The notes: generated from the sequence alone by a model not told the origin. Positions 9,201-32,425 are shown, counted from the first letter of the stretch. The stretch: 44,148 nt of DNA from Nitrospira sp. CG24A (GCA_002869925.2 NEWT02000033.1:96495-140642); one strand, 5' to 3'. Numbers and translations are program-made.

Positions 9201-12024
9201 TTGACGGACTCCATTCCAACAGTCTTGTATGCGTGACCAACATTCGCCAGATCGTGCGCACAATCGCATCCAAACTGTAGAACGCCTCGTAGGGAAGGCA
9301 CACGACTGTCAATATCGTCTGAACGCTGTGCCGCCCGGCCAAGCGTAGCGCAGCGGCGACATGCTGCTCCGGCAACACATCCTCCGGCTTCTGAAACAGA
9401 TCCAGGATAGCGGCAAGCAACGGAGGAATCAGGATGATTCCGATCACCGCCAAGGTCCACAACCAGAACGGTGACAAGACTGTCCAACCGAGCAGCAACA
9501 TAAGGGTCAACGCAGCCGGGACAAGGCTGCGCCGAAGGTTGTCGAAAAGCTTCCATCGGGACAGTCCAGAGAGCGGGTTCTTCTGACGCTGTGCTCCTGG
9601 ACCGGGGACGCGCGGCAAGAGCCACCCAGCAAGCTGCCAATCCCCACGGATCCAGCGGTGCCGCCGGCTCACATCCACGCTGTAGCATGAGGGATTCTCC
9701 TCATACAACTGCACATCGCTCAGCAGCCCCGCCCGCACGTAGCACCCTTCAAGAAGATCGTGGCTGAGAATCCGGTTCTCGGGACAGCGACCCGCGAGTG
9801 TGCGTTCGAACACGTCCACCTCATAGATCCCCTTGCCGATGAACGAGCCTTCACTGAACAGGTCCTGGTATACATCGGAGACGGCGCGCGTATAGGGATC
9901 GATGCCGGGTTCACTCCCATTGAGTTGCGCATAACGCGACTGATTCGTGCCTGGGAGGCTTACGCCGACACGTGGCTGCAGAATGCCGTATCCTTCGCAG
10001 ACACGCTGTTTGTGCTCGTCGTACCGCGGACGATTCAGTGGATGCGCCATGGTTCCCACGAACTGACGCGCCGCATCACGCGGCAGTTGTGTATCCGTGT
10101 CGAGGGTGATCACGTATTGCACCTTCGACAGCACCTCAGTCTCGCCGACGATGAGGGAGAAGCAATCCCGTGAGCCGCCTCGCAGAAGTCCATTCAAATC
10201 CGCAAGCTTGCCTCGTTTGCGTTCGTGCCCCATCCAGATCCGTTCTCCAGTGTTCCATCGGCGCGGACGATGAAACAAAAAGAACGCATCGCCTGTCGTC
10301 TTTCGGTACTTTCCATTCAACTCTTCAACCCTTTTCTGGGCCAGCCGCAACAGGGGCTCGTCTTCCGGAAGGGTTTCCTCGTGTGCGTCTTGCAAATCGG
10401 TCAACAGGCCGAAATGCAGGTGGTTGTCCCTATTGGCCAGGAACCGGACTTCGAGCGCCTCGGTTAGCTCTTCGATGTTTTCAATGCTGCTCAGCATAGT
10501 CGGAACCACAACAAGTGTACGCGATTCCTGGGGAATGCCTTTGGAGAAGTCCATTCGCGGCAGCGCATGCGGCGTCACCAACACTGTCGCAAGCCAATTC
10601 ACCAGCGCGACCGCCAGTTGACTTGTACAGATGAGGGACAGGAGGCCGACCAGTGCGAGGAACCAACCCTCCTCATCATCGGCATAGGCCAGTGCCAGTA
10701 AGCCGCCGGTGAAGACCCCCGTCATCAAGACAATCGTGCCGACATAGAGGAGCAACGGAAACCGGCTGCTCGTTCGCTGAAGCGTGTTAGATGTGGAAAG
10801 GCGCACCTCCCCCGCTCGTTCGAGCTGTGGCACGCCCTTGTCGATCAGATAAAAACCAACATGGGCTTCTCGATCGCCGACACCTTTCCTACTCGCGCCT
10901 TGCTGCGCCAGATGAATCGCGTGCCGCGCGATTTCTCGTTCCGAGAGGCGGCTGCTTCTCGCCATCCTCTCCACCGCGTGGCGGTAGCGATCGCGAGTGG
11001 CAAAATCCATCTTGCCGTAGGCTGCAGCGGGATCCTCAGTCATCGTCCGCTCGACCACGCTCATCGTCTCAACGAACGTGCGCCAGTCCATCGCGCCCAG
11101 AAACCGAAGACTGCCGATGCTGTTGCTGATGGAGACCTGATCGACGGCCTGCTGTTGGTTTTCCGATTGCACCGACTGCTCAATGGTCAGGCCGGACTCG
11201 GAGAGCCGCTGTTCGATCCAGGTAAGCGGCAACGCCAAGTCGGGGCTCTGTCCCTGCAACCGCCGCGTGAACTCTGCCACGAACGCACTCGCCATCGGCG
11301 GGCTCGACCGCGCCATGTCCGCGATCACCAGAATCAGACTCTTCGGATCCTTCTCAGCGATGTCCATCATCTGATCCGCCCAGTAGTCGGCGCGATTGCG
11401 GTCGATCCTGTGGGCGGCGATCCGCGTGGCCGCGCGCCGGAGGTTCTCGATCAGCGCCAGACGGAGCATGATCGGGATGGCCCATAGTTCGCCTAACGTG
11501 AGATCGGTGATAGTCTGGTAGGCGGTCACAAAACTGCTAAGACTTCCCGGATCGACTCGTCCATCCCCATGCGAAATCGTTTCAAGCGCGATGTCGTATA
11601 CGCGGGGGAGCCCGATCGTCGAGCCATTCAGTAAGCGAGGAAGCTCCCGGCTATATCCCTTGGGCAAGTGTCTCTTGGCCGTGCGAATCTGCTCTTCGAT
11701 GAGATAGAAATTATCGAGCAGCCATTCCCCAGCCGGCGTAACCCGACGGTTCCCCTTCACCGCCTCTGCCAACAGATCGCGGACTCCGATCAGGACGCCT
11801 TCATTTTCAGCCAGTCTGCTCAGAAGCTGGTCCGGAGCCTGGCCCGGACTCAATTGGTGCAGACCAGCTAGGGTCCTGCCGTGTTGCTCCATTTGATCGG
11901 TGCTGAAGAGCTCCGAACGAAGCGGGGGCTCACCACCGGCGTACTGTTCCGCTAAGTCGTTTTCGGGGAAACTTGCCCTGAAATGGAGCAAGCTTCCGAG
12001 ATCGATCTTGCTACGTACCTTCAC
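3274..12024 (-). CDS. ndvB: cyclic beta-1,2-glucan synthase (GT84 + glycoamylase-like + GH94)
   Basis: A 2916-residue inner-membrane enzyme of the NdvB/Cgs family, which builds beta-1,2-glucan from UDP-glucose and closes it to a ring for the periplasm. Visible in order: a cytosolic N-terminal region; membrane segments near 420-470; a GT84 glycosyltransferase domain with LDTDTQLP near 645 and RRHRWIRGDWQ near 790; more membrane segments near 830-880 and 960-1000; a glycoamylase-like domain (FDKGCHLLAIGYNVGERR near 1335); two repeated carbohydrate-binding/GH94 N-terminal type segments near 1640 and 2130; and a GH94 phosphorylase domain with the catalytic-type motif GSGDWNDGMN near 2593. Length and order match the family, so the gene looks intact. 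The GTG start at 12024 overlaps the stop of a 79-codon ORF. A candidate Crp-type promoter lies at 12400-12442. Confidence 0.93.
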   Translation of the reverse strand: MKVRSKIDLGSLLHFRASFPENDLAEQYAGGEPPLRSELFSTDQMEQHGRTLAGLHQLSPGQAPDQLLSRLAENEGVLIGVRDLLAEAVKGNRRVTPAGEWLLDNFYLIEEQIRTAKRHLPKGYSRELPRLLNGSTIGLPRVYDIALETISHGDGRVDPGSLSSFVTAYQTITDLTLGELWAIPIMLRLALIENLRRAATRIAAHRIDRNRADYWADQMMDIAEKDPKSLILVIADMARSSPPMASAFVAEFTRRLQGQSPDLALPLTWIEQRLSESGLTIEQSVQSENQQQAVDQVSISNSIGSLRFLGAMDWRTFVETMSVVERTMTEDPAAAYGKMDFATRDRYRHAVERMARSSRLSEREIARHAIHLAQQGASRKGVGDREAHVGFYLIDKGVPQLERAGEVRLSTSNTLQRTSSRFPLLLYVGTIVLMTGVFTGGLLALAYADDEEGWFLALVGLLSLICTSQLAVALVNWLATVLVTPHALPRMDFSKGIPQESRTLVVVPTMLSSIENIEELTEALEVRFLANRDNHLHFGLLTDLQDAHEETLPEDEPLLRLAQKRVEELNGKYRKTTGDAFFLFHRPRRWNTGERIWMGHERKRGKLADLNGLLRGGSRDCFSLIVGETEVLSKVQYVITLDTDTQLPRDAARQFVGTMAHPLNRPRYDEHKQRVCEGYGILQPRVGVSLPGTNQSRYAQLNGSEPGIDPYTRAVSDVYQDLFSEGSFIGKGIYEVDVFERTLAGRCPENRILSHDLLEGCYVRAGLLSDVQLYEENPSCYSVDVSRRHRWIRGDWQLAGWLLPRVPGPGAQRQKNPLSGLSRWKLFDNLRRSLVPAALTLMLLLGWTVLSPFWLWTLAVIGIILIPPLLAAILDLFQKPEDVLPEQHVAAALRLAGRHSVQTILTVVCLPYEAFYSLDAIVRTIWRMLVTHTRLLEWSPSSNQDRDRRTGVVAYCRTMWIGPVLATASVIYLTLSEPSALDVTLPILALWFSSPVIMWWISQPMTRREVHLTGDQTIFLRKLARKTWAFFEEFVGPDDHWLPPDNYQEHPVAVVAHRTSPTNMGLALLANLSAYDFGYLSAGQLIERTTKAFHTMEELERHRHHFYNWYDTQSLKPLLPTYVSTVDSGNLAGHLLTLRPGLLALPDQKILVPRFFDGLSDTVRVLEDAAGESSPAPLAHFQKYLESAYASQPTTLTAARLCLDRLATTAEEVLASVTAAPESQATWWARALARQCRDALDDLMFLAPWALLSASQDRLSEYDHIDEIPTLRELAHLDEVCRQAIEQRLDSEARHEDRTWADGLQRLIVKASQRARERIAAVEGLAGQASQFANIEYDFLFDKGCHLLAIGYNVGERRRDSSYYDLLASEARLCSFVAIAQGQLQQEHWFALGRLLTTAGGGPVLISWSGSMFEYLMPLLVMPIYEHTLLDQTCKAAVERQIQYGGQRGVAWGISESGYNTIDVHLNYQYRAFGVPGLGLKRGLADDVVIAPYASALALMVAPEEACLNLQRLAAAGLEGPFGLYEAIDYTPSRLPRGQSSVVIRSYMAHHQGMSLLALAYLLLDRPMQKRFESDPLFQATMLLLQERIPKATASYSHSVELSDLRTTFGDAEMPVRRFNSPHTPIPEVQLLSNGRYHVMITNAGGGYSRWKDLAVTRWREDSTCDNWGTFCYIRDVVSKEFWSTAYQPTCKSPENYEVIFSEGRAEFRRRDHDIETYTEIVVSPEDDIELRRTRITNGSRTSRTIEITSYAEVVLASSASDALHPAFSNLFVQTEIIRERQAILCTRRPRSLAEHSPWMCHLMTVHGADIGTMSYETDRSRFIGRGRTAADPQAMGGSSARQGTHDAGGLSGSEGSVLDPIVAIRCRLTLGPEESATIDMVSGIGDTRNVCLALVEKYQDRRLADRVFDLAWTHSQVVMRQLNATEADAQLYGRLASSVLYANSSLRADPSDLIKNRRGQSGLWGYAISGDLPIVLLQIGDPANIDLVRQLVQAHAYWRSKGLAVDLVIWNEDRAGYRQLLHEQIMGLIAAGLEAHVMDRPGGIFVRPSDQISNEDRILLQSVARAIITDGRGSLADQITRRGHVDITVPRLAPTRTHRSEPVPSAALPRHDLRFFNGLGGFTPDGREYVITTAQGDVTPAPWVNVLANPHFGTVISESGQAYTWSENAHEFRLTPWHNDPVSDPSGEALYIRDEERGHFWSPTPLPSRGATPYVSRHGFGYSVFEHMERGIRSELWVYVALDAPIKFMVLKVRNESGRSRKLSATGYVEWVLGDLRPKSAMHIVTELDSKSASLFARNPYHTEFAGRTAFFDVNETTRTISGDRTEFIGRNGTLRSPVAMTRLRLSGKVGAGLDPCGAIQVPFELANGQEREIIFRLGVGRDAEDARNMVRRFRRPAAARSALEMVWQYWKHTLGAVHVETPDESLNMLTNGWLLYQTLACRLWARSGYYQSGGAFGFRDQLQDSMALIHTEPHLVRKHLLLCAARQFQEGDVQHWWHPPSGRGVRTRCSDDYLWLPLATCRYVLSTGDSGVLDEPIHFAEGRPVNQEEDSYYDLPGRSEKVAGLYEHCVRAILKGLARGEHGLPFIGSGDWNDGMNMVGEQGRGESIWLGFFLYDVLMQFAKVARLRGDLSFAQRCQSEAADVRQNIEQHGWDGEWYLRAYFDDGSPLGSASNPECQIDSIAQSWSVLSGAGNATRSRMGMDAVDRRLVRRDHALIQLLDPPFDKSHLNPGYIKGYVPGVRENGGQYTHAAIWAAMAFAALGDRRRAWELLAMINPINHARSPEGVATYKVEPYVAAADVYALSPHNGRGGWTWYTGSAGWMYRLIVESLLGLRLEVDKLHVVPCLPAHWKGFTLHYRYRETVYHITVLQTRAGNGDTKVSVDGIEQQNKTIPLVDDCREHSVEVHVPATEVH

Positions 12025-12260
12025 GTGTGAGGTCTCTTTCTTATAAGCAAGGTCTCGCGAACCAGTCTGCGCTCACGATGGCGTTTTGGGTTGCCCCTCT
12101 TCGGCGCTTCTTGCATAGAGCACCGCTCGATTCGATACGAATGTCGCAAGGCCAACGTGTGTATGTGTCGAAGTCCGATGCGGCACAGAAGATCGAGCGT
12201 CGGCGAGCAGACCGGAATGAGCAGTCGATCCTGGCTGAACCTACCCAGTGGGGGATTCAC
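12021..12260 (-). CDS. 79-residue leader ORF translationally coupled to ndvB (candidate)
   Basis: This ORF starts with GTG at 12260 and its TGA stop overlaps the GTG of ndvB in the sequence GTGA. The product begins MNPPLGRFSQDRLLIPV and is Arg-rich, with no known domain. Its own start again overlaps the stop of the short ORF upstream in a GTGA. Two successive start/stop overlaps suggest translational coupling, but the protein itself is not convincing, so this may be a control ORF or chance. Confidence 0.3.
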   Translation of the reverse strand: MNPPLGRFSQDRLLIPVCSPTLDLLCRIGLRHIHTLALRHSYRIERCSMQEAPKRGNPKRHRERRLVRETLLIRKRPHT

Positions 12261-12298
12261 GCCAAACCGTCAAAATCAAAAAATTCCTCGTTCATCAT
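12257..12298 (-). CDS. 13-residue mini-ORF in the ndvB leader (candidate)
   Basis: ATG ATG at 12298 opens the short peptide MMNEEFFDFDGLA. Its TGA overlaps the GTG of the 79-residue ORF (GTGA). The frame is open further upstream to a TAG, and the reading before it (VETPPSYRA) is also protein-like, so it may be the tail of a lost gene rather than a leader peptide. No clear ribosome site. Confidence 0.22.
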   Translation of the reverse strand: MMNEEFFDFDGLA

Positions 12299-12399
12299 GG
12301 CCCGGTATGAGGGGGGAGTCTCGACAGAGTACCTACCATATCGGAGGTGTGATACAGCTCGCGACTATATCGTCCATCTGCGCGAAATCTTCGATTAAA

Positions 12400-12442
12400 T
12401 CTATCCAATTAGATCGATGATTGTCTGGTCAAAATTGCTCAG
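12400..12442 (-). promoter_or_regulatory. candidate Crp-type promoter (site a) for ndvB
   Basis: Read on the minus strand, the dyad CTGAGCAATTTTGACCAGAC (12442-12423) is followed after 17 bp by GATAGA (12405-12400). This is the best match to the consensus of the eleven sites. The predicted transcript starts near 12393 and has a leader of about 370 bases before ndvB. Confidence 0.6.
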
Positions 12443-12718
12443 TTTTAATGGTCTAGTCGGCAGGCGACTTCACGTGTGCGCTGGTCAAAATACACCAAGC
12501 CTCATGAAGGGGGACCTAGAGGCAGCGGAAAACTATTGTGACGACCAACAATACAGCAGTTTCCTCGACGACTACAAACTGGTTTTTGGAAGAACTGATG
12601 CATGGTTGTCCCTTTGCAAGGCTCGTGTGCCTTTCCTTGACAAGGCAGAGAAGGAGTTGGTAGAAGGTCTTGGGGCAAGGGTAACAGCGGGCCCGGCCCG
12701 CACGGAAGGAACCGATCC
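12443..12718. other. divergent intergenic region with a doubtful plus-strand ORF
   Basis: This is the region between the divergent ndvB leader and the acyl carrier protein gene. It must contain the pigment-cluster promoter, but no good -35/-10 pair was recognised. An ORF from an ATG at 12504 to 12782 reads fairly protein-like (for example AENYCDDQQYSSFLDDYKLV) but has no ribosome site and runs 64 bp into the carrier protein gene in another frame. It may be a frameshifted relic or chance. A partial second dyad copy, TTTTGACCAG on the minus strand, lies at 12482-12491. Confidence 0.35.
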
Positions 12719-12985
12719 GTGTCTGATGTATCGCCTCTGGAAACAGAAGTTGCAAAACTCATCGTGCAGACACTCACACTAAAAGTTGATCCAGCACAAA
12801 TTCGACCAGAAGAGCCACTCTTCGGTGACGGCCTGGGTCTTGATTCGATTGACGCGCTCGAACTGTCTCTTGCGATCTTTCAATCCTATGGACATCAGAT
12901 ACGTTCAGATGATCCAGACTCTGTCGCCACCTTCGCCTCACTCCGGTCACTCTGTCAGTCGATCGAGAAACATCGCACGAAATAG
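12719..12985 (+). CDS. acyl carrier protein of the aryl polyene cluster
   Basis: An 88-residue acyl carrier protein that holds the growing polyene chain on a phosphopantetheine arm. The motif GLGLDSIDALEL carries the attachment Ser43. The start is a GTG at 12719 with AAGGA about nine bases upstream. It is first in the operon, 14 bp ahead of the ligase gene, as in xanthomonadin and aryl-polyene clusters, where a carrier protein gene is near the start. Those clusters often have two carrier proteins; only this one is visible here, so it presumably serves both starter loading and elongation. Confidence 0.88.
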   Translation: MSDVSPLETEVAKLIVQTLTLKVDPAQIRPEEPLFGDGLGLDSIDALELSLAIFQSYGHQIRSDDPDSVATFASLRSLCQSIEKHRTK

Positions 12986-12999
12986 CAGCAGGTGGCTCT

Positions 13000-14346
13000 A
13001 TGAACCGCGCCGCGTTGCTCGGCCTCTACCACACTGACCGAGTGTTGGCTTGGGAGAACGGCCGCTCGATGACCTATGGCCGATTTCTTTCCGATGTGGA
13101 AAACCTTGCTGACTTGCTTCCTGAGAAACCTACGGTCATTAACCTGGCTGATGACCGTTATCAATTTCTGGTCGGATTCGCCGCTGCCTTGGTCCGAGGA
13201 CAGACCACGCTGCTTCCTCCTAGTCGCGCACCTGGCGCCTTAGCCCAGATGGCTCGAGAATATGGCAACAGCTATTGCCTGGTAGATGGCACTCAACAAG
13301 TTGAACCACTCCCCTCCTTTCAAATCCCGAAAGGTACAGGGAGTCCAACCGGCACGGTGAAGGTTCCCCAAATCCCCATTGACCACCCGGCCATAGTGGC
13401 CTTTACGTCAGGCAGTACAGGAAATCCTCATCCACATGTCAAAACCTGGGGCTCCCTCGTCGCAATCGCTCGGAGCACTGGGACCCGGCTGGGGCTCAAG
13501 ACTTCCGATCAGATGACCGTCGTGGCGACAGTTCCTCATCAGCACATGTACGGGCTCGAAGTCTCTGTTATGCTTCCCATTCAACATGGGATGGCGTTCT
13601 ATACGGGGCGTCCGCTGTTTCCTGAAGATGTACGATTAGCATTGGCGGAGGTGCCGTCGCCGCGCATGCTTGTCACCACGCCTTTACATATCCGTGCTTG
13701 TGTCACCGCTCGCTCACGGCTGTCTCCAATGGAGTGCATTCTTTCTGCAACCGCGCCCCTTCCTAGCTCGTTGGCCAAACAAGCCGAGATTCTGTTCCAA
13801 ACCAGAGTCTATGAGGTGTATGGGTTTACGGAGGCTGGGAGTCTCGCCACAAGGCGAACTGTCGACGAGAACAGCTGGCACGTGTTGGATGGCATCACGC
13901 TGCATCAAGAATCGGCCGCGTGTTCCATGTATGCCTCATACTTGCGTGAGCCCGTCCCCTTTCCCGATCTTGTGTCGCTGCAAGGCCCGCATCGGTTCGT
14001 GTTGCATGGACGTGGCACGGATCTGGTGAACATTGGTGGGCACCGGGGTTCGTTAAGTGACCTGAGTCAAAAACTGAACGATATCGAGGGCGTGCAGGAT
14101 GGCGTGTTCTTCCTCCCGGATGAAATAGGAACCGCCGTCACACGTCTAACCGCCTTCGTTGTTGCGCCTGAAAAATCTGCTGAACACATTCTGTCGGCGC
14201 TTCGAACAGTCATTGATCCAGTGTTTCTCCCCAGACCACTTCACCTGGTTCCTGACCTGCCCCGTAACGAAACCGGCAAGCTCACGCGAGAGGCGTTGCT
14301 CGGACTGCTGCGTGAGCTTCATAAAAAGGAGCAGCATGGGTCCTGA
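13000..14346 (+). CDS. adenylate-forming aryl-acid:ACP ligase (ApeH/XanA2-like)
   Basis: A 448-residue member of the AMP-forming ligase superfamily. In aryl-polyene systems this enzyme activates hydroxybenzoate or hydroxycinnamate with ATP and loads it on the carrier protein. The P-loop FTSGSTGNPHPHVKTW begins at residue 135 and has the PH...K variant that I associate with pigment-cluster ligases. YGFTEAGS is the A5-like motif, and NETGKL near the C-terminus supplies the catalytic Lys427. Length is short but complete. It overlaps the next gene by 11 bp. The chorismatase gene at 25268 would deliver its substrate. The exact acid cannot be read from sequence. Confidence 0.85.
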   Translation: MNRAALLGLYHTDRVLAWENGRSMTYGRFLSDVENLADLLPEKPTVINLADDRYQFLVGFAAALVRGQTTLLPPSRAPGALAQMAREYGNSYCLVDGTQQVEPLPSFQIPKGTGSPTGTVKVPQIPIDHPAIVAFTSGSTGNPHPHVKTWGSLVAIARSTGTRLGLKTSDQMTVVATVPHQHMYGLEVSVMLPIQHGMAFYTGRPLFPEDVRLALAEVPSPRMLVTTPLHIRACVTARSRLSPMECILSATAPLPSSLAKQAEILFQTRVYEVYGFTEAGSLATRRTVDENSWHVLDGITLHQESAACSMYASYLREPVPFPDLVSLQGPHRFVLHGRGTDLVNIGGHRGSLSDLSQKLNDIEGVQDGVFFLPDEIGTAVTRLTAFVVAPEKSAEHILSALRTVIDPVFLPRPLHLVPDLPRNETGKLTREALLGLLRELHKKEQHGS

Positions 14347-14662
14347 GCGGATCGTCACAATCGGTGCGGACCATCCCTCGCTGGCTGGACATTTTCCCGG
14401 CCATCCCGTGGTCCCTGGCGTCGTGATACTGGGAGAAGTTATGAATGCCATCGGCGAGATGGCCGAACAGAACATCGAGTTTGTGGGTATGCCGTCGGCA
14501 AAATTCATGTCGCCCCTGAACCCAGGAGAGCCTCTTACGATCAGGTTGGATCAGCAGGGCAATAGCGCAATGGAGTTCACCTGCACCACCGGGACTCGAC
14601 TCATTGCGAGTGGCTGCATGCTATACCGCATTGTCGCCGATGATTCCACGGGTGATTTGTGA
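14336..14662 (+). CDS. hotdog-fold 3-hydroxyacyl-ACP dehydratase (ApeI/FabZ-like)
   Basis: A 108-residue single hotdog-domain protein. The motif GHFPGHPVVPGVV at residues 18-30 is the FabZ/FabA active-site helix, with His19 as the likely base. It would remove water from the 3-hydroxyacyl chain to make the conjugated double bonds. The ATG at 14336 follows AAAAAGGAG and lies inside the end of the ligase gene, so it is translationally coupled. A second dehydratase of different type is at 20769; two dehydratases are normal for this pathway, and I recall ApeI and ApeP as counterparts. Confidence 0.85.
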   Translation: MGPERIVTIGADHPSLAGHFPGHPVVPGVVILGEVMNAIGEMAEQNIEFVGMPSAKFMSPLNPGEPLTIRLDQQGNSAMEFTCTTGTRLIASGCMLYRIVADDSTGDL

Positions 14663-15555
14663 GTGCGGGGTGGTTGCGGCAACGCGAACGCGGCAGTCGA
14701 ATCGCGTCACGATTCATGATCTGGATGGCGTTATCCGTAGGCCGTCCCGCCGCGCGGGCCTTGCTCTATCCAATCTGCGTCTATTATTTGGTATGTTCGA
14801 GGCAGTCAAGTCGCGCTATCCGACCCTATTTGATTCGAGCGCTGGGACGTCCAATCGGCTGGCGTGACCTGTATCGGCAGTATCATCGTTTTGCGGAGAC
14901 GCTTCTCGATCGTGTCTATCTTCTTGCCGGGCAAGGCAACCGCTTTGACATCAAGATACGAGGACTCGACTTGCTCAAGGACCGCGTAGCTCGTGGCAAG
15001 GGATGTATTCTGCTCGGGTCACATCTGGGAAGTTTCGAGATCGTGCGTACCATCGGGCTGACTCAGCAGGATGTCGAAATCAAAGTCCTGATGTACGAGC
15101 AGCATACACCGATGATCCGAGACCTCTTCCGCGACCTGAATCCTGCGTTTGCCGATGCGATAATACAGACCGGCACGCCGAACACGATGCTGCAAGTCAA
15201 GGAATGTCTGGACCGCGGAGGAATGGTGGGCATTCTCACGGATCGTCTCGTGAAGCAGGATCAGACCACGCCCTGCACGTTCTTCGGCAAGCTCGCACGA
15301 TTCCCTGCAGGCACTATGTGGCTCGCGAGCATCTTGCAGGTGCCGGTCGTTCTCTTCTTCGGGATCTACCGAGGAGACAATCGCTACGAGATTCATTTCG
15401 AGTTGTTCGCCGAGGAGATCACGATCGACCGGCGGCATCGAGATCAGGAGGTTCAGCAATGGACCCAACGCTACGCCGACCGTCTCGAATACCACTGCCG
15501 CCTGGCGGCCGACAATTGGTTCAACTTTTATGACTTTTGGGAAGAGCAACTGTAA
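14659..15555 (+). CDS. LpxL/HtrB-like acyltransferase
   Basis: A 298-residue membrane-associated acyltransferase of the lipid A lauroyl-acyltransferase superfamily. The catalytic HX4E motif is HLGSFE (His122, Glu127). GMVGILTDR and FPAGTMWLA follow as in the family. The hydrophobic N-terminal part (residues 18-48) probably anchors it in the inner membrane. In aryl-polyene clusters this enzyme is thought to join the polyene to a lipid so that it can be placed in the outer membrane. The GTG start at 14659 overlaps the preceding stop by 4 bp, and the gene overlaps the next one by 26 bp. Confidence 0.85.
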   Translation: MSAGWLRQRERGSRIASRFMIWMALSVGRPAARALLYPICVYYLVCSRQSSRAIRPYLIRALGRPIGWRDLYRQYHRFAETLLDRVYLLAGQGNRFDIKIRGLDLLKDRVARGKGCILLGSHLGSFEIVRTIGLTQQDVEIKVLMYEQHTPMIRDLFRDLNPAFADAIIQTGTPNTMLQVKECLDRGGMVGILTDRLVKQDQTTPCTFFGKLARFPAGTMWLASILQVPVVLFFGIYRGDNRYEIHFELFAEEITIDRRHRDQEVQQWTQRYADRLEYHCRLAADNWFNFYDFWEEQL

Positions 15556-16180
15556 ATGGTCGTTGAGACTGCTTACCCTATTCCTCATCTGGTTGTTCTT
15601 GCCGGGTCCTACACCGGTGTCCTTGGGCCAGTCGTCGCCACAGTCTGAGCGTGAGGCAGGATCGACTGACTGGAATGTGGACCAGCTCATTGAGGACCTG
15701 GCCAAGCATCGGCAGTCGGAGGTACGGTTTGAAGAGACTGCTTTTTCGCACCTGCTCACCCAGCCTTTGAAGACCCAAGGCATCTTGCGTTTCACTCCTT
15801 CGACGGGACTCGAAAAACATATTACCGCTCCATATGACGAACGCTATCTCGTTGAAGGCGATACGGTCCTCTTCGAGAGCAGGACGAAGGGTACGAAGAG
15901 GAGCCTTTCACTGCACGACTACCCTGTGCTGCAAGCATTTATAGAAGCCTTTCGGTCAACTCTGGCCAATGATGTCGTGACCCTGAGGCGTTTCTATAGC
16001 GTGACATTGCAGCGTGGGCCAAGGAGATGGGTCTTGATACTGCATCCACTGGACAAAGCCATGCAGGAGCTGGTGGAGTCCATTCGGTTCTCCGGAGAAA
16101 GAGAAGACGTCGACAGCATTGAGATCCAAGCCCCAGACGGAGATCGGTCTGTCATGGTCATCACAGCGAGCGCACCGTGA
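15530..16180 (+). CDS. LolA-like outer-membrane lipoprotein carrier (XanG-like)
   Basis: A 216-residue exported protein with a hydrophobic signal segment at residues 11-33 (LRLLTLFLIWLFLPG). The rest fits the LolA-like fold found in pigment clusters: VRFEETAFSHLLTQPLKTQG followed by a strand-rich part ending in IEIQAPDGDRSVMVI. It probably carries the lipid-linked polyene across the periplasm together with the MMPL exporter encoded next, which it overlaps by 4 bp. The start overlaps the acyltransferase gene. Family assignment rests on the pattern and on position in the cluster; LolA-like proteins are weakly conserved. Confidence 0.8.
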   Translation: MTFGKSNCKWSLRLLTLFLIWLFLPGPTPVSLGQSSPQSEREAGSTDWNVDQLIEDLAKHRQSEVRFEETAFSHLLTQPLKTQGILRFTPSTGLEKHITAPYDERYLVEGDTVLFESRTKGTKRSLSLHDYPVLQAFIEAFRSTLANDVVTLRRFYSVTLQRGPRRWVLILHPLDKAMQELVESIRFSGEREDVDSIEIQAPDGDRSVMVITASAP

Positions 16181-18531
16181 ACAGACAGTCTTGGGTCACC
16201 CTACTGATCTGGTGCCTGGTACTGGGGTTCGGAGCATGGTTTGTGGCTGCGCGTGCTCAAGTGGAGACCGAACTCTCCCGTTTATTGCCGGACGGTGCCA
16301 CACCAACAGAACGCCTCCTACTTACTGAACTGCGAACAGGCGCGACCGGGCGGCTCATTCTTTTAGCTTTGGAGGGAGAGGGTGCCGATCGGGTGGCAGA
16401 GGCCAACAAACAGTTGGCGACCTGGATGCGTAACAGTGGTTCGTTCCACTATGTCGGCAATGGGGAGCAAGCCTGGACAAAGGAGGAGCGGGAACGCCTC
16501 TTTCAGAATCGGTATATGCTCAGTCCAGGCGTTCAGGAGTCGGCATTCAGTCGAGATCATCTCCGCAACTCCCTTGAGCTGCGGCTGAATGACCTCACCT
16601 CTCCCCTGTCACCAATGATCAAGGAAATGATCCCAGCCGATCCCTCTGGCGAGTTCATGAAAATTCTTCAAGCCTGGATGACCTCGACGGCTCCCGCACG
16701 ACACCAAGGAGTGTGGTTCTCGTCGGACCAGCGGCGCACATTGCTCGTGGCGGAAACGCACGCGGCCGGTTTTGACATGGAGGCCCAAGAACAACTCCAA
16801 GGGCAAATTAGAGAAGCCTTCAGAACAGTCTCCGGAACTTCCCCTGGTGCAGCTCCCATTCAGTTGGTGATGACGGGGCCCAGCGTCATTGCGGTCGAGA
16901 TGCGGCAGGCCATTCAAGACGATGTGTGGCGGTTGTCCTTGTATGCGACATTGCTGGTCACCACGTTTCTCTTCGTGAGCTATAGATCGGTCTCTGTTCT
17001 TGCTCTCAGCCTCCTCCCTTTGGCGAGCGCGATCCTGGCCGGAATTGTAGCCGTGAGTCTTGTGTTCGGATCCATTCACGGCATGACCTTGGCGTTTGGG
17101 ATTACGTTGTTAGGCGTGGTAGACGATTATCCCATCCATCTGTTCAGCCATCTCACGAAGGAGAGCCGGGCGCCGGCCGTGATGAAAGAGATCTGGCCGA
17201 CGATGCGCCTTGGAGTCGTGGCGACGGCTCTTGGCTTCTCGGCATTACTCCTAAGCGGGTTCCCTGGCCTATCGCAACTAGGGCTGTTCGCGATGGTCGG
17301 CTTGTTCACGGCCGCATGCGTGACCCGCTGGGTTCTTCCCCACATCGTTCCCATAGGATTTCACACGAGACGCGAAGGGCTGCATGTCGCACGGTGGGTC
17401 GATGCGCTGACAAGAGCACGACTCGTAGTCCCGCTGATGGTGGTCATAGCCATCGGCTCCTTCATCTGGTCAGATACGTCCCTATGGGAGCAGGACATTG
17501 CCAATCTGAGCCCGATTTCGACCGAGATGAAAGAGCGGGATCAAGATCTTCGCAATCAACTCGGGGTACCAGATGTCCGAGACCTCATCGTGGTGGAGGG
17601 CTCAAGCGAAGAGGACGCCCTCCAACGGAGTGAGGCGTTAGCGCTCGCGTTGGATCCGCTCGTGAGAAATGGAGAACTGGCAGGATACGATCTCGCTGCT
17701 CGCTATTTGCCCAGTCGCAAGACGCAGCAGGCGCGCCAAGCATTCTTGCCTGATCACGAAATCTTGGAACGGAATCTCACCTCGGCCATGAAGGGTCTGC
17801 CATTCAAGCCCAGTCTGTTTCAGCCCTTTCTGGACGCAGCAGAGAAAGCCAGGACGCAGGAGCCGGTCGACATGCAGGCGTTCAGCGGGACGGCGCTGGG
17901 CCTCAAACTGGACTCGCTGCTGTTTATGCATGAGGGACGCTGGGTTGCGGTCATGCCATTACGTGGCGTCTCTGACAGGCAGAAATTCCGGGATTTTCTG
18001 ACGCCCTGGAGTGAGGAGAAGATTACCTATTTGGATTTGAAGGAAGAATCAAACCGAATGATCAGTGTGTACCGAAATGAAACGCTCCGACTGTTGGGGT
18101 GGGGGGTCCTGTCCATCGGTCTCGTGCTGCTGGTCGGGCTCCAGGCTCCCATCACCGTGTTACGAGTGATGCTCCCAATCGGGAGCGCCATCGTGGTGGT
18201 AGCTGCTCTACTGCACCTGCTAGGTGAACGGTTCTCGCTGTTCCACCTTGCGTCTTTTCTGCTGGTTATCGGTCTCGGGTTGGACTACGCGCTGTTCTTT
18301 AACCGGAGACATGGGAGCCTGGCGGAACGAGGACGCACCGTCTATGGCCTGGTTGTGTGCAGCACGACTACAATCTTGGTATTCGGAGTTTTGGCCCTCT
18401 CGCAGATCCCCGTGCTCCGAGCCATCGGATTGACCACGGCCTTGGGATCGCTGGCCTGTCTGGTTTTTGCCGCGTTCCTAGCTGAGTCGCCCAAGAAACC
18501 ACCTCTTCTCGCCGCGACTTCCCCCGACTGA
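16177..18531 (+). CDS. MMPL/RND-family exporter (XanF-like)
   Basis: A 784-residue inner-membrane exporter. The layout is two copies of one membrane anchor, a periplasmic loop and about five membrane helices. The first helix group includes LYATLLVTTFLFVSYRSVSV near 260 and the motif GVVDDYPIHLFSHL near 315; the second lies near 640-780 and includes GLGLDYALFFNRRHG, the matching motif of the other half. Members in xanthomonadin and aryl-polyene clusters move the pigment lipid toward the outer membrane. It overlaps the LolA-like gene by 4 bp. Unlike the other junctions, its stop is followed by 82 bp or more before the ketosynthase gene, and a candidate promoter begins at its stop codon. Confidence 0.88.
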   Translation: MNRQSWVTLLIWCLVLGFGAWFVAARAQVETELSRLLPDGATPTERLLLTELRTGATGRLILLALEGEGADRVAEANKQLATWMRNSGSFHYVGNGEQAWTKEERERLFQNRYMLSPGVQESAFSRDHLRNSLELRLNDLTSPLSPMIKEMIPADPSGEFMKILQAWMTSTAPARHQGVWFSSDQRRTLLVAETHAAGFDMEAQEQLQGQIREAFRTVSGTSPGAAPIQLVMTGPSVIAVEMRQAIQDDVWRLSLYATLLVTTFLFVSYRSVSVLALSLLPLASAILAGIVAVSLVFGSIHGMTLAFGITLLGVVDDYPIHLFSHLTKESRAPAVMKEIWPTMRLGVVATALGFSALLLSGFPGLSQLGLFAMVGLFTAACVTRWVLPHIVPIGFHTRREGLHVARWVDALTRARLVVPLMVVIAIGSFIWSDTSLWEQDIANLSPISTEMKERDQDLRNQLGVPDVRDLIVVEGSSEEDALQRSEALALALDPLVRNGELAGYDLAARYLPSRKTQQARQAFLPDHEILERNLTSAMKGLPFKPSLFQPFLDAAEKARTQEPVDMQAFSGTALGLKLDSLLFMHEGRWVAVMPLRGVSDRQKFRDFLTPWSEEKITYLDLKEESNRMISVYRNETLRLLGWGVLSIGLVLLVGLQAPITVLRVMLPIGSAIVVVAALLHLLGERFSLFHLASFLLVIGLGLDYALFFNRRHGSLAERGRTVYGLVVCSTTTILVFGVLALSQIPVLRAIGLTTALGSLACLVFAAFLAESPKKPPLLAATSPD

Positions 18532-18569
18532 GCAGTTTTGCACAGTCGGTTTCCCCGTAATCTGATAAT
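18528..18569 (+). promoter_or_regulatory. candidate Crp-type internal promoter (site k) for the ketosynthase half of the operon
   Basis: CTGAGCAGTTTTGCACAGTC at 18528-18547 matches the consensus of the other sites at 15 of 19 defined positions and begins at the stop codon of the exporter gene. GATAAT follows after 16 bp (18564-18569). A good GGAGGA ribosome site and the ATG at 18614 come next. Orientation and distance fit the other ten sites. Confidence 0.5.
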
Positions 18570-18613
18570 TTTCTCCCTGGCGGGTTTGATCGCCATCGTG
18601 GAGGAATGCCTGC

Positions 18614-19978
18614 ATGCCACAAGGTTTGGTTCATGAACCCATAGCGAAAGACCTACCCCGTCTCGTTGAGAATCGCCGCTCAAATCAGGCCATCGATGAT
18701 GGCCCTCACGATCCTCAAGACTACCAACACACAGTTCCTCAACATCAGCAAGTTGGGGCACGATTGATGACGCCGCTCATTCTCACCCGCTACACCATCG
18801 TCTCTGCACTGGGGAAGGGTCTCACCGAGACCTATCAGGCCTTGCGGAATCGGCGTTCAGGGTTGCGGCCCTGCGACTTCGAGGATGTGGGAATCACCAC
18901 CTACATCGGCCGGGTCGATGATGTGGAAGACGTGTTCCTCGGCGGTGGTGCGACCTCAGCGGAATTGGAACGGTTCGACTGCAGGAATAATCGGCTCGCG
19001 CTCCTCGCACTCCAGCAAGATGGATTCATCCAAGCCGCCATAGAGGCCCGGGAGCGCTACGGCGCCCACCGCGTGGCGGTGATACTCGGTTCGAGCACCT
19101 CGGGTATCCTGGAAACGGAACATGCATATAACCGCCGTAACCCTGCTACCGGCGCCTTGCCGTCGGCGTACCTGACGTCCCATCGATATACCCATAACAT
19201 GTTTTCGTCCGCGCATTTCGTGCGCACATACCTGGGGCTGCGGGGACCAGCGATGGTCATCTCCACGGCCTGCTCGTCGAGCGCGAAGGCATTTGCAACG
19301 GCGGCACGATTCATCGAAGCCGGATTCTGCGATGCGGCGGTGGTCGGCGGCGTGGATAGCCTCTGTCTGACGATTCTATATGGATTCGCTTCCTTGGGAC
19401 TGACGTCGTGTGCTCCCTGCCGTCCATGCGATGTGAATCGCAACGGACTGACGTTGGGCGAATCGGCCGGCTTTGCGTTACTGGAAAAATCAGAGGAGGC
19501 AGGTCGGCCCGGGGCGGTGGCGTTATTGGGCTACGGGGAGAGTTGCGATGGGTATCATATGTCGCATCCCCATCCGGAAGGGACCGGAGCGATCAAAGCG
19601 ATGCACGCGGCTTTGCTGCGGAGTGCTCTCACCCCTGGAGACATCGACTACATTCATCTGCACGGCACCGCGACCAAGTCGAACGACAGCATTGAAGATA
19701 CAGCCATCCATTCAGTGTTTGGCCCCTCGACCCTCTGCAGTTCGACCAAAGGGTGGACGGGACATACATTGGGGGCAGCGGGAGTCACGGGAGCCGTGAT
19801 TGCCGCGATGTGCCTCACGCACAGTTTTGTTCCCGGGACACTGAACACGACTCGCATCGATCCCAGCTTGTGCAGTCACGTGATGATGGAAAATAGAGAG
19901 CAGCAGGTTCGGCGGGTGTTGAGTAATAGCTTTGGGTTTGGCGGCAATAACTGCAGCCTGATTTTCGGAACTGTCTGA
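18614..19978 (+). CDS. beta-ketoacyl-ACP synthase (ApeO/FabF-like)
   Basis: The condensing enzyme that extends the aryl starter by malonyl units. Numbered from the internal Met encoded at 18767, the triad is complete: Cys169 in STACSSSAK, His299 in HLHGTATKSND, His333 in WTGHTLGAAG; NSFGFGGNN closes the protein. The ATG at 18614 has a strong GGAGGA ribosome site but adds 51 polar residues (from MPQGLVHEP) not expected in the family. The ATG at 18767 (MTPLILTRYTIVSALGKG) matches the usual family start but has only a weak GGGG in front. Either the enzyme is N-terminally extended, or the 5' part is the remnant of a lost gene. It is followed with a 1-bp overlap by its partner subunit. Confidence 0.88.
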   Translation: MPQGLVHEPIAKDLPRLVENRRSNQAIDDGPHDPQDYQHTVPQHQQVGARLMTPLILTRYTIVSALGKGLTETYQALRNRRSGLRPCDFEDVGITTYIGRVDDVEDVFLGGGATSAELERFDCRNNRLALLALQQDGFIQAAIEARERYGAHRVAVILGSSTSGILETEHAYNRRNPATGALPSAYLTSHRYTHNMFSSAHFVRTYLGLRGPAMVISTACSSSAKAFATAARFIEAGFCDAAVVGGVDSLCLTILYGFASLGLTSCAPCRPCDVNRNGLTLGESAGFALLEKSEEAGRPGAVALLGYGESCDGYHMSHPHPEGTGAIKAMHAALLRSALTPGDIDYIHLHGTATKSNDSIEDTAIHSVFGPSTLCSSTKGWTGHTLGAAGVTGAVIAAMCLTHSFVPGTLNTTRIDPSLCSHVMMENREQQVRRVLSNSFGFGGNNCSLIFGTV

Positions 19979-20775
19979 TGGAATTGTATGTAAACGGGAT
20001 AGGCCTATTAGGGCCGGGGCTTGCAAATTGGACAGAAGGTCGAATACTGCTGGCAAGCGAAAGCCCTTCTTGTGAAGCGGCCATGCCGGAGCCGAGCGCA
20101 AGTATACTTCCGGCAAACGAACTGCGACGCAGCAGCGAAAGTGTGCGCTGGGCTCTCCATGTAGCCCAGGAGTCCATGCAGCAGGCAGAGACCGATCCGC
20201 GCGAGGTGACATCCGTCTTCGCAACCTCCGAGGGCGAGACCGGTGTCTTGGATCGTCTCTGCACGGCGCTGGCCGAGCCGCAACGGACGATTTCTCCCAC
20301 ACTGTTCCACCACTCCGTCCATAATGCCGCGTCCGGCTACTGGGGCATCGCCACGGGCTCACAGCAATCGTCAACCGTGCTGGCCTGTTATGATTCTTCC
20401 TTCTGTGCCGCCTTGCTGGAGGCAGCCGCCTATGCGCAGATCGAGGAACGGTCTGTACTCTTGGTGGCCTATGATCTTCCGCCACCCCCTCCTCTCTATG
20501 CTGCGAGACCCCTGGGAGGAGGATTTGCGGCCGCGCTCTTATTGACCCGAGCCCCTGGACCCCACAACCTCGCCCAACTCGATCTCACTCTTTCCAATGA
20601 CCTCTCTGAGGAAGCGACAATCATGGACGATGTGCGACTGGAAACCCTTCGGACCAGGAATCAAGCCGCTCAGTCATTACCGCTCCTGGCTGCCATCGCG
20701 AGGCAGTGCAATACGCTGGTCCGTCTTCAGTATCTAGAAGACCAACAGATATTGATCCGGGTAGCACCATGCTGA
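19978..20775 (+). CDS. ketosynthase-like chain-length factor (ApeC-like)
   Basis: A 265-residue protein of the short ketosynthase N-terminal-like family found beside ketosynthases in aryl-polyene clusters. The typical segment FHHSVHNAASGYWGIATG is present near residue 110-127, and there is no nucleophilic Cys in the place used by true ketosynthases, so it should be a non-catalytic partner. Heterodimers of this kind set chain length in characterised systems (ApeO-ApeC, recalled). The start overlaps the ketosynthase stop by 1 bp and the end overlaps the next gene by 7 bp, which supports equal production of the two subunits. Confidence 0.82.
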   Translation: MELYVNGIGLLGPGLANWTEGRILLASESPSCEAAMPEPSASILPANELRRSSESVRWALHVAQESMQQAETDPREVTSVFATSEGETGVLDRLCTALAEPQRTISPTLFHHSVHNAASGYWGIATGSQQSSTVLACYDSSFCAALLEAAAYAQIEERSVLLVAYDLPPPPPLYAARPLGGGFAAALLLTRAPGPHNLAQLDLTLSNDLSEEATIMDDVRLETLRTRNQAAQSLPLLAAIARQCNTLVRLQYLEDQQILIRVAPC

Positions 20776-21218
20776 GGATCGGCAAAGCCGCTATCTGCAG
20801 ATTGATTCCGCACCACGGCACGATGTGTTTGTTGAATGCGGTCGAGCAATGGAATGACACCAGCATTCTGTGTACGACCGCGTCGCATCGTGACGCGACG
20901 AATCCTCTCCGGCGGAACAACCGATTGGAAGCGATCTGCGGACTGGAGTATGCGGCACAGGCGATGGCGGTGCATGTCGGGCTTCTGCAGCCGAGGAAGG
21001 AGCATCGGCTCGCCGTAGGATACCTGGGCGCCGTCAAGAATCTAATGCTTCAGGCCACTCGTCTGGACAATGTGAAGGCAGACCTGACAGTTCATGCTAC
21101 CCGTCTAGTCGGTGAAGCGGGCTGTTTTATTTACACCTTTCGAGTGTCGGCTGAGCGACAAGAGTTGCTGGAAGGGCGGGCATCCATATTCCTCAAATAC
21201 CGCGACCACCAATTATGA
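20769..21218 (+). CDS. hotdog-fold dehydratase (ApeP-like)
   Basis: A 149-residue hotdog protein, the second dehydratase of the cluster. PHHGTMCLLNAVEQW at residues 14-28 is the characteristic segment of the ApeP-type 3-hydroxyacyl-ACP dehydratases, with a His pair instead of the HFPGH of the first enzyme. GLEYAAQAMAVHVGLL further on fits the central helix, and GYLGAVKNLMLQ the following strand. The ATG at 20769 lies inside the end of the chain-length factor gene, and the stop overlaps the ketoreductase start by 4 bp. Confidence 0.82.
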   Translation: MLRIGKAAICRLIPHHGTMCLLNAVEQWNDTSILCTTASHRDATNPLRRNNRLEAICGLEYAAQAMAVHVGLLQPRKEHRLAVGYLGAVKNLMLQATRLDNVKADLTVHATRLVGEAGCFIYTFRVSAERQELLEGRASIFLKYRDHQL

Positions 21219-21934
21219 AGCGAGCATTAGTCACAGGAGGCAGCGGTCAAATCGGCGCCGCGATCAGCCGGCAACTGGCGCAGGAGCGCCTGCACGTCAT
21301 TGTCCATGCGCATCGCAATCGTGCTGCGGCTGAAGCGGTGACCGAGCAGATCATCGAAGCAGGAGGATCGGCCAGCGTCGCCTGCTTCGATGCCAGCGAT
21401 ACCCAGGCCACCAATAGGGCCCTTGTGCAGATTCTGGAAGCCGGCCCAATCCAGGTGCTCGTGAACAATGCAGGTGTCTATGACGATGCCCCGATGGCAG
21501 GCATGCGGGCGGAACAATGGAACCACGTGATCGCGGTCTCGCTAGGCGGCTTTTTCAATGTGACTCAGCCGTTGCTCCTTCCGATGATCGGCACTCGGTG
21601 GGGACGGATCATCACGGTTTCGTCGGTCTCAGCCCTGCTCGGCAATCGAGGCCAGACGAATTATGCAGCGGCCAAAGCGGGGCTCCACGGCGCCTCGAAA
21701 TCGCTTGCACGGGAGGTCGCCTCTCGTGGCGTGACCGTCAATGTGGTGGCGCTGGGTTTTATTGAATCGCGGATGGTCGAGCAAAGTTGCAAACCCGAAA
21801 AGATCGAGGCCTTGGTACCGATGAAGCGAGCCGGGACGCCTCAAGAGGTTGCAGACCTGGTCGGATTCCTGGCCTCCGAGAAGGCCAACTATATCTCCGG
21901 CCAAGTGATCGGTCTCAATGGAGGAATGGTGTGA
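21215..21934 (+). CDS. 3-oxoacyl-ACP reductase (FabG/ApeQ-like)
   Basis: A 239-residue short-chain dehydrogenase that reduces the 3-keto group with NADPH after each condensation. The cofactor motif TGGSGQIG lies at residues 7-14, NNAG at 84-87, and the catalytic residues are Ser137, Tyr150 and Lys154 (YAAAK). The C-terminus (GQVIGLNGGMV) is typical of FabG. ATG at 21215 overlaps the dehydratase stop (ATGA), and GTGA links it to the next gene. Confidence 0.9.
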   Translation: MKRALVTGGSGQIGAAISRQLAQERLHVIVHAHRNRAAAEAVTEQIIEAGGSASVACFDASDTQATNRALVQILEAGPIQVLVNNAGVYDDAPMAGMRAEQWNHVIAVSLGGFFNVTQPLLLPMIGTRWGRIITVSSVSALLGNRGQTNYAAAKAGLHGASKSLAREVASRGVTVNVVALGFIESRMVEQSCKPEKIEALVPMKRAGTPQEVADLVGFLASEKANYISGQVIGLNGGMV

Positions 21935-22662
21935 ACGTCGATTCACAGTACTGGGTGGTGATCCCCGCCTATAATGAAATGGCAACGATCAGGGACGTGG
22001 TATTGCGGACGATCCGACAAACCAAGAACGTGATCATCGTGGACGATGGATCCACCGATGGCACGGCAGAAGTCTTAGTTGACTTGCCCGTGACGCTGCT
22101 GAGAAATCCTACGAATTGCGGAAAGGCCACCAGCCTATGGCGTGGCTTTCAACAGGCATTGACTGCAGGAGCCTCCGGCGTCGTGACACTGGACGGCGAT
22201 GGCCAACATGCACCAGAAGACATTCCACGATTGCTCGCTGAAGCTGCCTCCCATCCCGATCATGTCATCATCGGCGCCCGCCGAGGAGATCAGCGACGCG
22301 CGGCCTACTGGCGCTATGTCGCGAACCGTGTAGCTGATTTCTGGGTCTCCTGGGCTGCGGGCTGTTCATTTGCAGATAGTCAGTCGGGTTTTCGTGTCTA
22401 TCCCGCATCACTGTTGAGTCGCGTGAAGATCACACATGGAAAAGCCAGGAGCTTCGTCTTTGAAAGCGAAATTCTGATCGAGGCCACACGCTCAGGACAT
22501 CAAAGCCTGGCAGTTCCCATTGAAGCCCTGCGCCGTCCTGGAGCGCGACCGAGTTATTTTCGGCCGGTGTCCGACATCACCCGCATCACCTGTATGGTGG
22601 GGTGGAAACTTATGTCTAGGGGCATGTACCCGATCGGACTCTACCGCTCGTTCTTTAAATAG
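21931..22662 (+). CDS. family 2 glycosyltransferase
   Basis: A 243-residue GT-A enzyme resembling dolichyl-phosphate mannosyltransferase-type proteins. The nucleotide-sugar motifs are VIPAYNE (residues 10-16), IVDDGSTDGT (36-45) and TLDGDGQH, the DxD region. SFADSQSGFRVYP is also typical. The GTG start at 21931 overlaps the ketoreductase stop and follows GGAGGA. It ends the pigment operon. In related clusters a glycosyltransferase decorates the polyene or its lipid carrier; the sugar cannot be told. The short C-terminal region (MVGWKLMSRGMYPIGLY) may lie on the membrane. Confidence 0.82.
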   Translation: MNVDSQYWVVIPAYNEMATIRDVVLRTIRQTKNVIIVDDGSTDGTAEVLVDLPVTLLRNPTNCGKATSLWRGFQQALTAGASGVVTLDGDGQHAPEDIPRLLAEAASHPDHVIIGARRGDQRRAAYWRYVANRVADFWVSWAAGCSFADSQSGFRVYPASLLSRVKITHGKARSFVFESEILIEATRSGHQSLAVPIEALRRPGARPSYFRPVSDITRITCMVGWKLMSRGMYPIGLYRSFFK

Positions 22663-22709
22663 GCCTCCGGCGCGTCGAGCAGCCAATACCCTCCCCCGCT
22701 CGTCCTGGT

Positions 22710-22805
22710 GACTTCGTCTTGCTGAGCCCGGTCTGAGCCACCCTCGCACTAAGGATGTTCCACGATGCCGATGCAGAATTGTGCGCGAACCCCTTAGACG
22801 AAGTC
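22710..22805. repeat. interrupted inverted repeat between convergent genes
   Basis: GACTTCGTCT at 22710-22719 and AGACGAAGTC at 22796-22805 are perfect 10-bp inverted copies about 76 bp apart. The region separates the end of the pigment operon from the convergent DUF1207 gene and may help end transcription in both directions. There is no T-run. Confidence 0.35.
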
Positions 22806-22822
22806 GATGAAGCGGGGGTGGA

Positions 22823-23995
22823 TCAGTAATAGAGGTGAATGCCAAGTCCGAACCATTCGGTATTTTGAGTATAGAATTGTCCGTTGGGTGAGGGACCGCC
22901 GAAATACTCCGCCAATACCTGTAATCTGCGATCTCCGATTCTCGCGTTCTCGAACTGAAGTCCAGCCATCACGGAGCTGGCGACCTTCCAATTACTTCTC
23001 TCGTTGGCCTGGAAATCTGCATATGCCACTGGACGAACCTTGCCGTCCCACAAGGTCCAGGGGCTGGTGAGTTCTGCTCCCGCTTGGCTCGTGCCACGTT
23101 TCAGATTTTTCGGATCTCGCCCCACCAGCATACCTCCGCCACCATAAACCCTGAACCAGGAGGTCAGCTCATAGGACAATTTCAGATCGAGTTCTTCGAA
23201 GCTCAAATTGATTCGATCGATCGGCGCCCGACTATTGAGGATGAATTCATCGCCCAGGTGTGAACTCTGGTGATGAAGGCGAAAAAACCCTGAGAACGCG
23301 CCGGTCCGGTAGCTAGTGAGCAACCCCGCGATATAGTCAGCGTTGACGAGGTCCAGCGAACCGGACGGGGCACTCATATTGAATAGACTGAAGACTCCGG
23401 CTTGGACCGCGATTTCCCATTGGCCATCGAAAGGAGCGGCATTACGATAGAGGGCAAACGTTTCGCCAAAACTTGCCGAACCGCTATTCCTCGGCTCCTG
23501 ACCCAAAGAAACTTGACGGGACGCCATGGAGAAATGCGGCCAGTGCGGGTCGGCATGGAAAGGAGCCACGAGGAGATCGCGCGGAAGGAATTTTGACTCA
23601 GGCTTGGGAAGCTCTTGCTGGATCCCCTCCCGCGGCCGAACCCCCGGAACAGCGGGAGGCTCCGCGTCCTCTCGGACTTCCGTACGCACGACACCGGGGA
23701 TTTTTCCCAGCGCCGCAATAACTTTTTGTCGGTCGGCCTTGCCTAGCGAAGTGGCGATCAGCACTACCACTCCCTCGTGCACCTGTACAATTGCCCCTGG
23801 TACATTAAATTCGTGCTCGAGAACAGCGGCGGCATAGCCGGCGATGTAGGAGTCGTCAGCGGCGTTCGTTGCCGATGCAACCCCCAGTATGAGACAGAAC
23901 ACGAAGACCATGCCTCTCGTCGCAATCCTGACGGAGCTCAATATAGAGATCCGCCAGATAAGCATGGAATCATCTCTGACAAAAGTTCCCATCAT
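22823..23995 (-). CDS. DUF1207 outer-membrane protein with BON-like N-terminus
   Basis: A 390-residue exported protein. After a long basic leader comes the signal segment MVFVFCLILGVASATNAAD. Residues of about 48-105 look like a BON-type domain (FNVPGAIVQVHEGVVVLIATS, then KIPGVVRTEV). The remaining part is DUF1207: FHADPHWPHFS, NADYIAGLLTSYRTGAFSG, HHQSSHLGDEFIL, GGGGMLVGRDP, and a C-terminal FGGPSPNGQFYTQNTEWFGL that ends in Tyr, consistent with an outer-membrane barrel. The role of DUF1207 is not known to me. GGAGACGG precedes the ATG at 23995. It follows the deacetylase gene on the same strand after 278 bp and may share its transcript. Confidence 0.82.
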   Translation of the reverse strand: MMGTFVRDDSMLIWRISILSSVRIATRGMVFVFCLILGVASATNAADDSYIAGYAAAVLEHEFNVPGAIVQVHEGVVVLIATSLGKADRQKVIAALGKIPGVVRTEVREDAEPPAVPGVRPREGIQQELPKPESKFLPRDLLVAPFHADPHWPHFSMASRQVSLGQEPRNSGSASFGETFALYRNAAPFDGQWEIAVQAGVFSLFNMSAPSGSLDLVNADYIAGLLTSYRTGAFSGFFRLHHQSSHLGDEFILNSRAPIDRINLSFEELDLKLSYELTSWFRVYGGGGMLVGRDPKNLKRGTSQAGAELTSPWTLWDGKVRPVAYADFQANERSNWKVASSVMAGLQFENARIGDRRLQVLAEYFGGPSPNGQFYTQNTEWFGLGIHLYY

Positions 23996-24273
23996 TACAC
24001 CGTCTCCTTCACGTTACGGAGGCAGTGCCCCGCTGCAGGGTTGAGATACGGCTGAGAAGAGCGATGTCCATGCAAAGAGACGTTTTGGGGGAAGTCCCGA
24101 GCATCTGAACAGGCGCTAGTCTCGACTCCGAGTGTCGCGCCTCTCTCGCTCGGCTACCCTGTTGAAGGACACGTAATCCCGACGAGCAGACCCTCGACTT
24201 TCTGCTGTACGGAAATGATTCGCTCACTATCAGCGGATGTATTGATAATCTGAAGTGTGGCTTTATGACGATC

Positions 24274-32280: not shown

Positions 32281-32425
32281 ACGCACTCCAAGTTCTCTAC
32301 GCAGTCTTTATTTCCATGGTCAGCAACGCTGTTCTGTCGGCTGCCAGTTGGTCCAGGATGGTTGAGAACTGGTCATAAGGTCCCGACAACCGCTCACAGC
32401 CTCTAGATGTTGATCCATAATCAGG

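Follow-up and report, generated by a model that had tools for sequence, protein, structure and literature searches.

Why should an otherwise compact operon open up at a single point, ahead of a ketosynthase to which 51 codons seem to have been added? The question arises in a stretch of 44,148 nucleotides from Nitrospira sp. CG24A, referred to here as the window, in which genes for an ACP (12719-12985, the first of the operon genes listed), a ligase, a FabA-like dehydratase, an LpxL-like acyltransferase, LolA, an MMPL-family exporter (ORF 16177-18531, plus strand, with a Pfam MMPL match) and a ketosynthase (KS) follow one another, and are in turn followed by a second KS-like protein, a presumed dehydratase, a ketoreductase and a glycosyltransferase. 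The ACP stop at 12985 is followed by the ligase at 13000, and this junction, the next ones (14662/14659, 15555/15530, 16180/16177) and the later ones (19978/19978, 21218/21215) either overlap or leave about 15 nt at most. Only between exporter and KS is there more: the exporter stop TGA occupies 18529-18531, the next in-frame KS start is the ATG at 18614 (a gap of 82 nt), and the family-typical KS start is the ATG at 18767 (a gap of 235 nt). These coordinates confirm the original prediction, made from the sequence alone, that this junction is the sole gap of a tight operon. Our answer, to which we give a probability of about 0.74, is that the junction would be an internal class II CRP-type promoter, and the extension a tolerated by-product of a start codon that has moved.

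The dyad said to begin at the exporter stop is there: a 16-bp CRP-type box, TGAGCAGTTTTGCACA, a predicted activator site at 18529-18544 on the plus strand, overlaps the stop codon, which provides its first three bases. It is followed by TG-n-TAATTT (18563-18571, plus strand), a predicted extended -10 element with TG at 18563-18564 and its hexamer at 18566-18571, which agrees with TATAAT at three of six positions. The GATAAT that had been pointed out after the dyad is also present, at 18564-18569, but the -10 element at the spacing typical of the box family is TAATTT, two bases further right. From the position of the hexamer the predicted transcription start falls at 18578 (plus strand, give or take a few nt; PMC2859248), which puts the centre of the box, 18536.5, at -41.5, the class II position, where a CRP box overlaps the -35 element (PMC2859248). 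Further downstream the expected GGAGGA (18600-18605, plus strand; pairing energy -9.3 kcal/mol) was found 8 nt ahead of the ATG at 18614, and from that ATG the 51 added codons, MPQGLVHEPIAKDLPRLVENRRSNQAIDDGPHDPQDYQHTVPQHQQVGARL (18614-18766, plus strand), run in frame into the KS proper (18767-19978, plus strand).

The same junction occurs in seven lineages with KS identities of 78-88%, namely the window itself, G030, G007, G026, G031, L045 and L046. The half-sites TGAGCA and TTGnnCA are kept in all seven, the distance from box to TG is 18 nt in every one, and TG-n-TA(A/T)TT(T/C) follows without indels; the 42 nt from the -10 element to the ATG have undergone about four indel events. In six of the seven the exporter stop forms the first three bases of the box, while L046 has lost its exporter and LolA genes and retains box, -10 element and leader, a retention that counts as modest support because this cluster lost other genes too. 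The L046 cluster (8400-12200) is in fact decaying: ACP, acyltransferase, KS and KS-like genes are left, with the ligase as a fragment, and LolA, exporter, later dehydratase, ketoreductase and glycosyltransferase are missing. More distant orthologs have KS identities of 45-77% (L047 and L049 at 75-77%, plus a group at 68%); at the junctions of L047, L049 and the 68% group there is no gap, the KS gene either overlapping the end of the exporter gene or directly adjoining it, and a search of the distant orthologs' loci gave no box at up to two mismatches. Hence either this clade gained the element or the others have lost it.

How the 51 codons are to be understood depends on what has been conserved in them. 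They are open from the shared ATG in six of the seven lineages. Variable columns at the three codon positions number 33, 32 and 28 of 51 each in the extension versus 64, 39 and 195 of 399 each in the KS body, and pairwise dN/dS is 0.46-1.42 in the former versus 0.07-0.19 in the latter, so that neither codon-position variation nor dN/dS reveals purifying selection on the amino-acid sequence of the extension. In a neutral simulation the probability of all six frames staying open was 0.01-0.06, a test that is only moderately significant, and frame +1 also has few stops. The 153 nt of the extension have a single indel, versus the roughly four in the 42-nt leader. With an open frame, few indels and a freely varying sequence, it is the openness that seems to be kept, and not the sequence.

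The Shine-Dalgarno energies argue for entry at the upstream ATG: at 18614 they are -8.2 kcal/mol or stronger in every lineage but L046, which has -5.9 (5% quantile of the background, -6.4 kcal/mol), and at 18767 they are weak in most lineages, mostly -4.7 kcal/mol. The strongest competing explanation, in which the promoter is real, the KS is translated from 18767, and the 51 codons form a leader that is either untranslated or read separately, would have to accommodate these energies as well as the frame intact in six of seven lineages and its scarcity of indels. We consider it unlikely, though by no means negligible, as several observations agree with it: the absence of amino-acid constraint on the extension; the KS family model and the solved KS structures, which begin at the equivalent of 18767 (the NCBIfam NF006618 alignment begins at residue 1 of the form starting there); the distant orthologs, which have no extension; and G031, where a one-base deletion makes the leader frame end in TGATG at the KS ATG, an arrangement that, judging from the sequence, would allow stop-restart translation. 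Since G031 is a metagenome-assembled genome, its deletion is possibly a sequence error. The comparison of ortholog starts, put forward in the original prediction as a check, thus came out divided: the distant orthologs do start near the equivalent of 18767, but where the gap exists the upstream ATG is still in frame in six lineages out of seven.

We favour translation from 18614. A new mRNA would carry its own strong Shine-Dalgarno sequence and ATG there, so ribosomes would most likely enter at that codon and translate 51 unconstrained codons into the KS. The new promoter likely brought a new ribosome-binding site and start codon with it; the start having moved to this site, the extension is probably a tolerated by-product. 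That it could instead be a functional N-terminal domain of the KS, for docking, targeting or partner contact, we hold to be improbable: such a domain would account for exactly 51 in-frame codons in six lineages and for the few conserved residues (an NQxxD stretch), but it is contradicted by the lack of purifying selection, by the G031 frameshift and by its absence from the family models and the distant orthologs. The same three points tell against the suggestion that the extension is a meaningful addition to the enzyme. An AlphaFold model of the extended KS (mean pLDDT 46.5, from an 11-row alignment) was unusable, also as regards disorder of the extension. If our reading is true, a clade-specific promoter accompanies a moved start codon and lengthens a conserved enzyme, with no visible selection on the added residues, and the case is a caution for the annotation of N-terminal extensions.

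The junction box is one of a CRP-type, regulon-like family with the consensus TGAGCAATnTTGAHCA. Allowing up to three mismatches, the ortholog form TGAGCAATATTGCTCA, from G026, has 7 matches in the window versus 0.14 expected; allowing up to two, TGRKCAATATTGMYCA is found at 29 places in the genome versus none for a reversed-pattern control, these genome-wide counts being pattern searches. Many boxes lie a short distance 5' of genes, which in the window include those for a small protein with a lipoprotein-like N-terminus (26983, minus strand), an MlaC-like protein (29477, minus), a CRP-family regulator (32286, minus; box 164 bp upstream of the start), an RRM protein (37989, minus) and a CsbD-like protein (39563, plus). 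The window also has a box at the operon head (12426-12441), which by its sequence points leftward, away from the operon and toward a GH94-type gene. This gene (3274-12024, minus strand) encodes a 2916-aa protein with GH94 and glucoamylase-like domains, and is a possible further member of the regulon; a box and flank near-identical to that of the window occur in L042 (3818) and L043 (1683).

When boxes were oriented by their own sequence (TGAGC or TGATC on the left) and the positions of downstream xA...T hexamers tallied, leaving out the junction, the hexamer began at offset 22, counted in nt from the box, in 11 of the 22 genome boxes and at offset 23 in 6 of them; other offsets had 0-4 each, mostly about 1, against an expectation of about 1 per offset. 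Among the boxes of the relatives' loci, again without those of the junction, 13 of 19 had the hexamer at offset 22. For the fixed -10 offset the binomial p is about 2e-9 (taking p = 0.05). How boxes were oriented and which hexamer was tested had been decided with the sites already in view, but the boxes of the relatives repeat the result in part independently. At the junction TAATTT lies at exactly offset 22, with TG before it. Three good boxes elsewhere, at 3082 and 4223 in L055 and at 6024 in L056, have no -10 at this offset and share a different stretch beside them, AGACTC-like when read on the opposite strand; there the box may be used in another way. Elements of the sigma-54 type (-24/-12) near boxes gave only three matches in the window, none of them at the junction.

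This geometry bears on the notion that the gap is neutral leftover DNA and that box and -10 element are chance resemblances. A generic sigma-70 scan of 12000-24000 found no promoter, and the window box is the most degenerate among the seven lineages, with three mismatches to TGRKCAATATTGMYCA; still, that box, spacing and -10 element should be kept in seven lineages, and match a geometry set independently by other boxes, makes chance very improbable, and the null result of the scan is compatible with an activator-dependent promoter that has no -35 element. Looking elsewhere in the genome for a copy from which an insert at the junction could have come gave just short weak matches. Of even smaller probability is a terminator or attenuator between two transcription units, which CCGACTG/CAGTCGG, a possible 7-bp hairpin at the exporter end in the window, might suggest, but there is no T-run, no intrinsic terminator (G+C-rich hairpin plus T-run) is scored at the junction, the hairpin arms are not kept in orthologs, the covariation term for a conserved RNA structure in the leader is unfavourable, and no Rfam match reaches the curated score (one sub-threshold match lies inside the KS on the opposite strand). 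As a candidate conserved feature the hairpin was rejected: with mismatches allowed it occurs at chance frequency, and it is broken in orthologs.

The window itself contains a plausible regulator. The gene at 31546-32286 (minus strand) encodes a protein with cNMP_binding (PF00027, E=6.7e-19) and HTH_Crp_2 (PF13545, E=2.5e-11) domains, which place it in the CRP/FNR family, although its score reaches the curated cut-off of none of the NCBIfam CRP/FNR models; two intact paralogs and one remnant are found in the same genome. Among 61 genomes the exact box is present in 16, a close regulator homolog in 19 and both in 13 (Fisher p=1.6e-6, with shared ancestry not corrected for). The presence of the box thus tracks a regulator of this type, indirect evidence that makes it a plausible candidate binder. 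In several Nitrospirota the arrangement looks as if the regulator gene made up a unit with the promoter of the gene that follows it: boxes lie about 75-110 bp past the 3' ends of CRP-family genes in G028:C35, G033:C1, G057:C7 and G060:C7, and the window box at 31472 is likewise downstream of the 3' end of a CRP-family regulator gene (overall range about 60-110 bp). Fragments like the C-terminal part of the regulator (for example HSSLLNIVLHD), at 39235-39369 and near 33538, adjoin boxes (39443 and 33650) and may be what is left of decayed copies of the regulator gene.

With its class II box family, its conservation in seven lineages and a plausible regulator in the window, the internal promoter with a regulator site holds up in silico, and the junction is a real, well-conserved regulatory feature, although ordinary in kind. 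We infer regulator binding, activation and a transcription start at this site as follows. The box would be occupied by a CRP-family dimer, most likely of the 31546-32286 protein or of either of its two paralogs, RNA polymerase would use TG-n-TAATTT, and transcription would begin near 18578. The promoter would then add regulator-dependent expression of the elongation genes, comprising the KS and, at 19978-21934 (plus strand), the KS-like or chain-length-factor-like protein, the presumed dehydratase and the ketoreductase, to what read-through from the head of the operon probably supplies. Read-through is likely since the junction has no conserved terminator. The proposal that the regulator could control the chain-building genes separately from those for loading and export is accordingly sustained only in part: the junction promoter speaks for it, but read-through probably occurs, and G031, L045 and L046, unlike the window, have a further box directed into the head of the operon, so that separate control is plausible here and is not general.

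The identity of the cluster follows mainly from the KS. Its best PDB match is 6qsp_A, an aryl-polyene KS entry, and C220, H350 and H384 are invariant (alignment A2); from general knowledge of ketosynthases we take these to be the Cys-His-His triad, and the protein has the elongating-KS fold that goes with it. On the basis of this match the cluster is called aryl-polyene-like, that is of polyene-pigment type, and, going by its gene content, the product may be an aryl polyene. The presumed dehydratase downstream of the second KS-like gene has no Pfam match, its role being inferred from position. Near the cluster, an FkbO/Hyg5-like chorismatase gene (25271-26494, minus strand) could provide a hydroxybenzoate-type aromatic starter, and hints at such a starter for the cluster. 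A related cluster in a gammaproteobacterial metagenome-assembled genome (L048, Chromatiales USCg_Taylor, 515-6242; KS identity 66-69%) has no exporter or LolA gene between those for the acyltransferase and the KS, and reflects either horizontal transfer or a binning error.

It is tempting, but somewhat doubtful, to go further and propose that a new CRP-family regulon of Nitrospirota, of class II type, took over the elongation half of an aryl-polyene-like cluster by way of an internal promoter, the KS leader frame serving only to deliver ribosomes, mostly by in-frame fusion and once by TGATG stop-restart. By a brief literature search the box TGAGCAATnTTGAHCA has apparently not been described before. 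If true, the hard-to-manipulate Nitrospira would have a CRP-family regulon whose DNA motif and geometry can be tested, and polyene-type chain building would be tied to that regulon along with nearby genes of envelope and stress type.

These results can be set beside three known systems. The NnrR homolog of the Nitrospira MAG NSP_46 (PMC8510549) shares the CRP/FNR superfamily and the genus with the 31546-32286 regulator; in the NnrR part of that paper sites are assigned by matrices from other bacteria, and the present box is not described there. The E. coli class II CRP promoters (PMC2859248) have in common with the junction a 16-bp box of the TGnnC-N6-GnnCA type at -41.5, a -10-like element and no -35, but the Nitrospira box is TGAGCAATnTTGAHCA and not TGTGA-N6-TCACA, and start and regulator are predicted in silico here. 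As to the enzymes, the Nitrospira KS, annotated as ApeO-like, best matches the KS of the ApeO/ApeC pair of aryl polyene synthesis (6qsp; PMC8358021, PMC8253772), and the ACP, ligase, dehydratase, LpxL-like acyltransferase, LolA, MMPL exporter, KS, second KS-like protein and ketoreductase of the cluster count among the likenesses. The KS-like partner gene comes directly after the KS in Nitrospira, whereas E. coli apeC sits near the cluster start (PMC8253772), and the Nitrospira KS differs further in having a 51-codon extension upstream.
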